Source: Crassaminicella thermophila
GTDB lineage: Bacteria > Bacillota > Clostridia > Peptostreptococcales > Thermotaleaceae
Direction: 5' to 3'
DNA length: 64,000 nt
NCBI RefSeq assembly: GCF_008152325.1
Contig: NZ_CP042243.1
Span: forward strand, 1,865,026-1,929,025
The notes beneath the pieces are model-generated. The model had not been told where the DNA came from. It ran no database searches and worked only from the letters and a program-made list of their open reading frames with translations. Made by a program: the position numbers and the translations under genes. Shown piece by piece: positions 47,269 through 49,041 of the stretch (positions within the stretch are counted from its first letter, which is position 1; each line of letters starts with the position of its first letter).

Positions 47269-47296
47269 AAAAAAGAGAAAATTAATTTTTCTCTTT
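47269..47296 (-). terminator. terminator of the Mur-ligase-like gene
   Basis: AAAAGAGAAAAA and TTTTCTCTTTT with a short loop and T7 on the minus strand, overlapping the stop codon. Confidence 0.82.
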
Positions 47297-48541
47297 TAAA
47301 AGTTTATTCACAAGATTTTCTCCTTCATCCATCCCATGCCCACCAAGAAGCAAAATCAAATCATTCTTTCCTGCATATAACAAAGCTAATTCTAATGCAT
47401 CTTTTAATCGGTCCTTATGTTCATATACAATTTCATCTTCTTCAAATATCTTATGAAATATTTCTTTTTCTTTATCTAAAACTTTATAGTTTTCATCTAC
47501 TGTATCTACACTAGAAGTTGTAATCATTTTTGTAGATTTCATTGCTTTCATCCAGTTAGCTATAAGTAATGCATTGTTTTTATTCAAATCGACACCGCCA
47601 TTCCCAATAATAGCGTTTACAATGTATAAATTCTCATAATCAATACTTTGAATTGTTTCAAAAAGAGCCTCATAACTTGGGGGATCATGACTCATATCAT
47701 CTATGATTTGATACACATCATTATAAATCCGATACATTCTTCTTTTTATTCCTTTAAATTTTTGAAATGCTTTTACAATATCTTCTGGCAAAACGCCATA
47801 TATTAGGGTTGCTGCAATAGCAGCTAATGTATTATAAACATTATGTTTTCCAAGGAGATTAATTGAAACTGGAAATTCCATAGGATCAATTTCAATATCA
47901 TTCCGTGCAGTTATTCCCCTCTGAATGCAGCAATTAAATCTGATAGAAGGAGTACTATCAATACTAGATGCTGTAATAGTTGCCTTAGAACAAAGCCCAT
48001 AAGTAATCATTAATCTATTTTTCATATCCTCTAATAACATACTATTATTTTTATTATCTGTATTCACAATAACTACTCCATTTTCAGATAGATGCTTTCC
48101 TATTCTATTTTGTATATCTAAGTAGCCCTCATGATTTATATATTCAGTTTCTATATTTGTATATACTAAAGCATCAAATTTTATTCCATATATAAATGCT
48201 TCTTTAAAAGAATAGTTATCTACTTTCATTACAACAATTTGTATTCCTTTTTTTATCATCTTGTCAAAATACTTAAAAACATGTTCTGTATCACAATAAA
48301 TCCAACTAGTTTTAATCTTTTCTTCATCAAACCATACTTCTTCACAACTTAAAAATCCAACATGCTGTCCGTGTTCCTTTAATATATGATATATAATTTT
48401 TGCCGTTGTTGTCTTCCCGTTTGTCCCAATAACACCAACTATTTTTATTTTTTCAAAAGGATAGTCATATTTCTTATTATACAAATGCCAAGCTAATTCT
48501 TTTTTATCATTTTTTTTGATTTCTACTCCTTCAATCAGCAT
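47282..48541 (-). CDS. Mur-ligase family protein (MurE-like), role unknown
   Basis: An ATP-dependent amide ligase-fold protein of 419 residues. The P-loop is VIGTNGKTTTAKIIYHIL, the middle domain has VYTNIETEYINHEGYLDIQN, and the hinge region contains INLLGKHNVYNTLAAIAATL. The C-terminal domain begins FKGIKRRMYRIYNDVYQIID and has a MurE-like Asp-His-like pair only in part (IIDDMSHDPPSYEALFE). It lacks the N-terminal UDP-MurNAc-binding domain of true MurE and has an unusual C-terminal half. It may therefore ligate another substrate, as for cyanophycin- or polyglutamate-type relatives. RBS GAGGAG, monocistronic. Confidence 0.78.
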   Translation of the reverse strand: MLIEGVEIKKNDKKELAWHLYNKKYDYPFEKIKIVGVIGTNGKTTTAKIIYHILKEHGQHVGFLSCEEVWFDEEKIKTSWIYCDTEHVFKYFDKMIKKGIQIVVMKVDNYSFKEAFIYGIKFDALVYTNIETEYINHEGYLDIQNRIGKHLSENGVVIVNTDNKNNSMLLEDMKNRLMITYGLCSKATITASSIDSTPSIRFNCCIQRGITARNDIEIDPMEFPVSINLLGKHNVYNTLAAIAATLIYGVLPEDIVKAFQKFKGIKRRMYRIYNDVYQIIDDMSHDPPSYEALFETIQSIDYENLYIVNAIIGNGGVDLNKNNALLIANWMKAMKSTKMITTSSVDTVDENYKVLDKEKEIFHKIFEEDEIVYEHKDRLKDALELALLYAGKNDLILLLGGHGMDEGENLVNKLLKEKN

Positions 48542-48615
48542 GATTCATCTCCTCTTTGAAAATCAAGTTGCTTTATTATATTTTTCTCAACTTAAAATAA
48601 AATATGTATAAAATA

Positions 48616-48923
48616 GAGGCATGAAGAAATTTCATGCCTCAGACTGTAAACAAAATAAAAATTTATGAATGAAAAATAAAAGCAAATAATTGCAAAATTT
48701 TAGTAAAGAAAACTTGATGAAGAATTTCAGAAAAATCCGTAGGCTTAGCATGGATGCTAAGCCAGCATCCTACAAGATAGGACGTCTTGATTAGGTGCGT
48801 TAGGATTTTTCGAAATTATGAAGCTTAGTTTTCTCTAAAAATTTGTTTATGAGCGTTATTTTTCAATTCATTAATAAATATAACTTTGTCAACAAACTCA
48901 AGCATGAAGAAATTTCATGCCTC
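48616..48923. repeat. 260-bp imperfect palindrome flanked by 22-bp direct repeats
   Basis: GCATGAAGAAATTTCATGCCTC (a hairpin in itself) occurs at 48619-48640 and again at 48902-48923. The 261 bases between them form one long imperfect inverted repeat. The left arm (GAATTTCAGAAAAATCC) matches the complement of the right arm (GGATTTTTCGAAATT), and outer AT-rich arms also match. At the centre sit GGCTTAGCATGGATGCTAAGCC and CATCCTACAAGATAGGACG. No reading frame is apparent. It could be a MITE-like insertion into a terminator, or a structured RNA. The right-hand hairpin also serves as terminator of the NSS-transporter operon. Confidence 0.7.
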
Positions 48924-48936
48924 TATCTATTATTCA

Positions 48937-49041
48937 TTATGCATTATTTTTTGAATTAAAAGCTTTATTAATCAATATGATAAATCCTATAAAATAAAAT
49001 CCTAAAATCATTGCCATCATAAAAGTAGAAGTTGCTGACAT
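48937..49041 (-). CDS. MetS-like NSS transporter small subunit
   Basis: A 34-residue membrane peptide gene starting on the base after the transporter stop (TAA directly followed by ATG on the minus strand), with GAGAGGTGA upstream. The peptide begins MSATSTFMMAMILGFYFIGF, one hydrophobic helix with the SATSTFMMAMILGF-like start that I associate with the small MetS-type subunits of NSS transporters, then INKAFNSKNNA. In the MetPS methionine system the small subunit is needed for activity. Too short for default gene finders, but position, ribosome site and composition all agree. Confidence 0.82.
   Translation of the reverse strand: MSATSTFMMAMILGFYFIGFIILINKAFNSKNNA

Follow-up and report, generated by a model that had tools for sequence, protein, structure and literature searches.

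IS1272, a member of the IS1182 family, inserts at stem-loops and, according to the description of its insertion sites, replaces them without target duplication (PMC5678879). Similarly, TnSha1 targets hairpins, several of which have been confirmed as transcription terminators, and deletes part of the hairpin in which it lands (PMC4923244). The duplication of a whole stem-loop has been drawn as pathway b in Fig 13 of the IS1272 model (PMC5678879). Bacterial MITEs that give rise to sRNAs are small, geneless, palindromic and present in many copies, and the main text of a review on them contains neither the term IS1182 nor the term CsrA (PMC10969869). In a literature search by title and abstract opening, with most subscription papers, preprints and ISfinder outside its scope, no MITE that duplicates terminators was found. 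TwoAYGGAY (RF01731), in turn, is an orphan Rfam RNA described as two adjacent hairpins with GGA-containing loops and a long stem (PMC2864571, PMC4333381). It was proposed earlier, from its motif, to be a CsrA-binding sRNA (PMC4333381), and passages on this RNA in three papers do not mention mobility. The SELEX consensus of CsrA is given as RUACARGGAUGU, and the repeat of CsrB as CAGGA(U/A/C)G (PMC7652899).

The locus described here resembles all of these in part. It lies in the window, a stretch of 64,000 nucleotides from Crassaminicella thermophila, where the 22-mer GCATGAAGAAATTTCATGCCTC is present twice, at 48619-48640 and 48902-48923, on either side of an imperfect palindrome; the pair is absent from the listing of a direct-repeat search of the window. 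Both these repeats and the near end-to-end folding of the segment between them were part of the original prediction, and both are borne out, as the predicted fold of 48600-48940 reaches -105.5 kcal/mol, whereas 100 dinucleotide-shuffled sequences average -58.1 and none of them folds as well (z -9.4). The predicted length of 261 bp also holds, but the coordinates 48641-48901 do not: the element proper occupies 48640-48900 on the + strand, with C48640 assignable to either the repeat or the element. Its terminal inverted repeats are CAGACTGTAAACAAAATA on the left (48640-48657, + strand) and TGAGTTTGTTGACAAA on the right (48885-48900, - strand), and no frame of at least 60 codons is listed inside it. 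The flanking 22-bp unit is a terminator-like hairpin on the - strand, with two sites found versus 0.2 expected, and a T-rich tail follows its left copy on that strand. Both neighbouring genes are on the - strand. A Mur ligase gene with middle and C-terminal domains (47282-48541) has its 5′ end towards the element, and a sodium:neurotransmitter symporter gene (PF00209, 49042-50541) has its 3′ end towards it; the duplicated terminator presumably belonged to this gene. A caiA match at 48574-48649 was taken as chance, with 25 bits against a cut-off of 55.5.

In all likelihood, the palindrome is an IS1182-type miniature transposon that duplicates terminators and carries a captured TwoAYGGAY-type module. 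In this respect, the recognition of the repeat as a host terminator and of the loops at the tip as being of the CsrA type goes beyond the original prediction.

The first line of evidence comes from the copies of the element in its own genome, which is the only one to represent its genus in the comparison set. A search of this genome (3.08 Mb, two contigs) returned 48 rows, some of which are the palindrome matching itself reversed. There are 24 near-complete copies with the window copy included (88-100% identity, at least 212 bases matched), and the shorter rows, from L025 on, are fragments. The consensus of 25 aligned copies starts with CAGACTGTAGACAAAATA and ends with TTTGTCAACAAGCTCA, and the flanks of the copies are unrelated from site to site. 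The family is thus short and geneless, with terminal inverted repeats and many copies in unrelated surroundings, which are the features of a MITE and the result that had been expected to favour one. A single-copy decayed sequence, the outcome that the original prediction had allowed for otherwise, is ruled out by the 24 near-complete copies. Concerning their orientation, the - strand carries all 10 near-complete copies located at 0.01-0.9 Mb, and the + strand carries 12 of the 14 located at 1.9-3.05 Mb. Two further loci (L031 and L033, G000:C1 near 76892 and 492119) consist of element left ends with most of the remainder missing, and a c-di-GMP-I riboswitch is found near another copy (L017:754-838, - strand).

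The second line of evidence is the sequence that flanks each copy. Both ends can be recognised by motif in 14 of the 25 copies, while one end is unrecognisable in the other 11. When flanks of 40 bases were aligned, 11 of the 14 two-ended copies showed direct repeats with scores of 15.5-28, as opposed to a maximum of 12 among 182 mismatched left-right pairs; the remaining three (L002, L006, L014) have no long repeat, with scores of 8-9. What is repeated is host sequence that varies per site. Inspected by eye, most of these repeats comprise a complete terminator hairpin, and that of L011 comprises one hairpin arm and the loop only. Parts of both hairpins are also retained, by eye, around five copies with damaged ends (L013, L017, L018, L019, L022). 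An automatic hairpin scorer gave a median of 8 pairs in 19 left flanks versus 5.7 in shuffles, and its counts are low because stems with loops longer than 8 or shorter than 3 (for instance, those of L004, L012 and L015) are missed. Judging from these sequences, the MITE nature of the element and the hairpin duplication are established, much as had been predicted.

The third line of evidence comes from larger relatives. The original prediction placed the mobilising transposase elsewhere, and relatives allow its family to be named, as IS1182, but none was found in the element's own genome, where the two profiles searched, PF13751 and NF033551, gave 0 matches each, at E values up to 1 for NF033551. 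Mobilisation of the copies by a transposase of the IS1182 family is, consequently, a strong inference from relatives. The source transposase appears to have been lost from this genome, which makes the copies look like relics. Across the order, a profile search found PF13751 in 109 of 297 genomes. By eye, 12 of 30 IS1182 loci (L129-L158) carry the end CAGACTGTAGACAAA or one near it, and in the other 18 such an end was not seen within the stretch examined. Among 20 further IS1182 stretches, three from G208 lack such an end and five from G023 have the left end only. In L175 and L176 both ends are present and one flank is cut off by a contig end. Ten IS1182 elements are complete with both ends and both flanks: seven from G152 and one each from G081, G283 and G034. 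Nine of these ten lie between perfect 21-30-bp direct repeats, which are whole hairpins that touch both ends with zero offset; the mismatched flank pairs of these relatives score 10.5 at most (90 pairs).

These IS1182 elements have in common with the window element the end CAGAnTGTAGACAAA, terminator-like hairpin targets and the duplication of the whole hairpin. For instance, the copy consensus agrees with the G283 end at 15 of 15 bases (14 of 15 for the window copy) and with the G152 end at 17 of 19 (16 of 19 for the window copy, and 18 of 19 for some copies, L002 and L019 among them). They differ in size, being about 1.5-2.2 kb long with a frame of about 480-540 codons, whereas the window element has 261 bp. 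Transposases from four of the loci (L166, L135, L154, L155) score 449-464 bits against NF033551 (cut-off 270), and the partial frame of L167, with 247 bits, falls under that cut-off. The shared ends and the same kind of target, duplicated whole, are as expected of a non-autonomous derivative. Thus, taking together the copies, the site-specific hairpin duplications, and the ends and hairpin duplications that it has in common with IS1182 elements, the window element is classed as an IS1182-type MITE. Two observations on the relatives may be added. The IS1182 element L161, in G152, has terminator-like hairpins that differ between its two sides, possibly as a result of recombination between copies. 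In addition, G023, of the same family as the window, holds five IS1182 copies (L167-L171) with a longest frame of 298 codons each, and L167 covers just the C-terminal half of the transposase.

The same data bear on two other ways of producing such a locus. IS1634 makes long target duplications of variable length. A terminator-targeting element of this or another IS family would explain why the duplications seen here are long and vary in length, but both the end sequences and the hairpin targets match IS1182 elements, the one family whose transposases were sought in this genome, and such an origin is very unlikely. Alternatively, the insertion might have replaced a hairpin, as in IS1272, with the second hairpin gained separately. 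As far as the IS1272 account goes, that element does belong to the same family and does target terminator hairpins. Nevertheless, the hairpins on the two sides of a copy match one another but not the hairpins found at other sites, the duplication is perfect in 9 of 10 full-length relatives, and the window element family does not display the removed hairpin and missing target duplication that, in the published descriptions, set IS1272 and TnSha1 apart from it. This second route is therefore hardly credible. In effect, the sequences provide evidence for duplication of the complete stem-loop target by members of the IS1182 family. The IS1272 authors had included this pathway in their model as a possible one, while the hairpin is removed by IS1272 itself, and such cases may already be on record in ISfinder.

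For the IS1182-type miniature transposon, insertion may be envisaged as follows. On each strand, a DDE transposase of the IS1182 family would join a 3′ end of the element to the terminator stem at its 5′ foot. Gap repair would then copy the whole stem-loop to either side; joining at the stem's 5′ foot on both strands is what would leave a complete stem-loop on both sides. According to open-frame calls, the right-hand gene is directed at the element in 22 of the 25 copies (with E for the element, the arrangements are <E< in 17, >E< in 5, <E> in 2 and >E> in 1), so that most copies lie reversed and downstream of a gene. The transcript of that gene would meet the first hairpin, then the reversed element, and then the second hairpin with its T-rich tail. 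Because the transcript would reach this second hairpin after the element, termination is probably kept, one hairpin copy further on. The 10 bases after the hairpin hold 5.0 T next to the right-hand gene versus 6.5 at the far copy (n = 11, P 0.047), a small difference that hints at a shift of termination to the far copy. This arrangement suggests a way for an element to live in terminators while leaving termination intact.

In addition to its ends, the element has a recognisable interior. Its core (48691-48859, + strand) matches RF01731 with 32.3 bits, under the gathering score of 43, and is enclosed by IS1182-type ends. RF01731 matches 12 of 20 own loci scanned, all on the + strand of the element and one of them above the cut-off (L016, 43.7). 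A model, R1, built from 12 own cores and L057, in turn matches 14 of 23 RF01731 loci and finds 14 of the 297 genomes of the order, the own genome included. Since RF01731 matches own loci and R1 matches RF01731 loci, homology holds both ways, and by these matches the core is a divergent homologue of TwoAYGGAY. It shares with that RNA, as described in the literature, paired adjacent GGA-loop hairpins on a long stem. Here, the first tip hairpin is GGCTTAGC-ATGGAT-GCTAAGCC (48742-48763) and the second is CAAGAT-AGGAC-GTCTTG (48773-48789), both on the + strand and with a GGA loop of the CsrA type. The original prediction had taken CATCCTACAAGATAGGACGTC as a single hairpin, which is not the case, as the second tip hairpin is CAAGATAGGACGTCTTG.

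Covariation had been named as a check for a structured RNA, and it is strong. The alignment, fitted to R1, combined the 14 RF01731 loci matched by R1 with 22 loci from the order and a single own core, and left out the nine RF01731 loci that R1 missed and four order loci without GGA (L189-L192). Among its 39 matches there are 37 distinct cores, with changes on both sides in 43 of 44 pairs and a covariation of 0.689, versus 0.185 when shuffled and at most 0.152 when slid. A simple scan found two or more GGA-loop hairpins in 26 of the 37 cores and one in 11, a few of its picks not being the tip hairpins. The core thus has a covarying stem that bears two hairpins, their loops being of the AnGGAY type. 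Within the own genome, 22 of 25 copies retain both GGA and 3 have lost one, and the six GGA columns are 98% conserved versus 91% for matched columns (P 0.03). The four excluded loci (L190, L191, L192 and L189, in G011, G023, G127 and G134) share the core arms (AAGAAAACTT and similar) and have a different tip, in which, by eye, GGA hairpins are absent and some contain a GTTTGAnnGAAGTGAGTTT-like stretch. They possibly carry another module on the same arms.

These results make the second reading of the original prediction, a structured RNA between two terminators, partly right, as TwoAYGGAY homology and strong covariation are both found in the core. However, its non-mobile version does not fit. 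An ordinary regulatory RNA of the TwoAYGGAY type, sitting immobile between two terminators, would account for the RF01731-like core and its covarying stems, but not for dispersed copies with unrelated flanks, transposon ends and duplicated hairpins specific to each site, and it is highly improbable as an explanation. The MITE and the structured RNA are compatible, not exclusive, readings.

As for what the module does, its loops, CAYGGAYG and YAGGAYG with exceptions, place GGA in hairpin loops and resemble the CsrA SELEX consensus and the CsrB repeat. The own genome has a CsrA gene at C1:501924. In the class, RF01731 was found in 27 of 291 genomes (19 above the cut-off) and CsrA (PF02599) in 95 of 291; the RF01731 counts are lower bounds, since that search used strict filters and scored at most nine candidates per genome. 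Without a match at E 0.001 in this search, the own genome was counted as negative. CsrA is present in 23 of the 27 TwoAYGGAY genomes versus 72 of 264 others (Fisher P 4.7e-9, uncorrected for kinship), and the four TwoAYGGAY genomes that lack it are G467, G507 and G544 (80-88% complete) and G561 (95%). In the order, all 14 R1-positive genomes have CsrA versus 137 of 283 others. This comparison adds little, because four of the 14 (G011, G023, G127, G134) lack GGA hairpins by eye, yet have CsrA, and because CsrA is present in 15 of 16 genomes of family f1 in any case. Binding of CsrA by the element core is, accordingly, a supported hypothesis. Judging from sequence, covariation and co-occurrence, this captured module of the TwoAYGGAY type, with its pair of GGA-loop hairpins, would most likely bind CsrA when the + strand is transcribed. 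The earlier proposal of CsrA binding by TwoAYGGAY gains support in this way, and many natural variants are now at hand.

A MITE with an interior devoid of function is the alternative to be weighed most seriously here, and it has a real, if somewhat less than even, chance of being correct. The GGA loops would be inherited and drifting, and the arms would be kept paired by templated correction of the quasi-palindrome. This would agree with the loss of one GGA in 3 of 25 copies, with the finding that promoter-like sites near the GGA strand or in the element are no more frequent than chance, and with the GGA strand running antisense to each of its two neighbours in 17 of 25 copies, a position that speaks against transcription of these copies from neighbouring promoters. 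Nevertheless, stems change in pairs across genomes while GGA stays in the loops, the GGA columns exceed matched columns in conservation as given above, and most TwoAYGGAY genomes have CsrA.

Regarding mobility outside the own genome, hairpin duplication was rejected as a general feature of TwoAYGGAY, as 38 of 39 RF01731 stretches have flank scores of at most 11 (39 of 40 were tested; L118, cut by a contig end and mixed in strand, was left out). The one high value, 19.5 in L092, seems to combine an 8-bp duplication with an old end repeat of the G332 element. As a control, 300 random flank pairs gave a mean of 8.6, a 95th percentile of 10.5 and a maximum of 51, the high values presumably arising from pairs of copies from one genome. 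G332 has nine TwoAYGGAY copies, of which eight were tested for ends and seven are two-ended. Five of these seven have duplications scoring 8-10, whereas 42 mismatched pairs score no more than 5; L089 and L093 score 5 and 4. This repeat has ends unlike those of IS1182 and duplications of about 8-10 bp. By contrast, L186 of G008, whose core was found by R1, has a 28-base hairpin repeat (score 23) and IS1182-like ends, the right one within 3 mismatches of the motif and the left one seen by eye. Among the 26 order loci, the other high flank scores are those of the near-tandem pair L208 (52.5) and L203 (15), and the rest are at most 12. The core thus travels in at least two kinds of element, the G332 repeat and the IS1182-type element of the own genome and G008, and an RNA that had been an orphan in Rfam is thereby connected with mobile elements.

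More tentatively, TwoAYGGAY may be a CsrA-binding module that is carried from place to place by miniature transposons unrelated to each other (terminator-duplicating ones of the IS1182 type in the own genome and G008, and a different one with duplications of about 8-10 bp in G332) and scatters CsrA decoy sites, with gene ends spared where the terminator is duplicated. A general role in cis-regulation is unsupported. In 64 rows of TwoAYGGAY loci, 15 are co-directional and 17 are antisense to both neighbours (15 versus 15 once three doubled places are removed), and no orientation preference is seen.

Some loci also differ in their arrangement or in their arms. In G043, two TwoAYGGAY copies, L203 and L208, follow each other almost in tandem at a distance of about 80 bases. 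The outer arms of the G490 loci (L058, L085, L097-L099) are highly divergent, yet look paired. Finally, the outermost ends of the G310 loci (L067, L120-L123) vary, by eye, in compensating pairs between copies, as if the ends were corrected within the palindrome.
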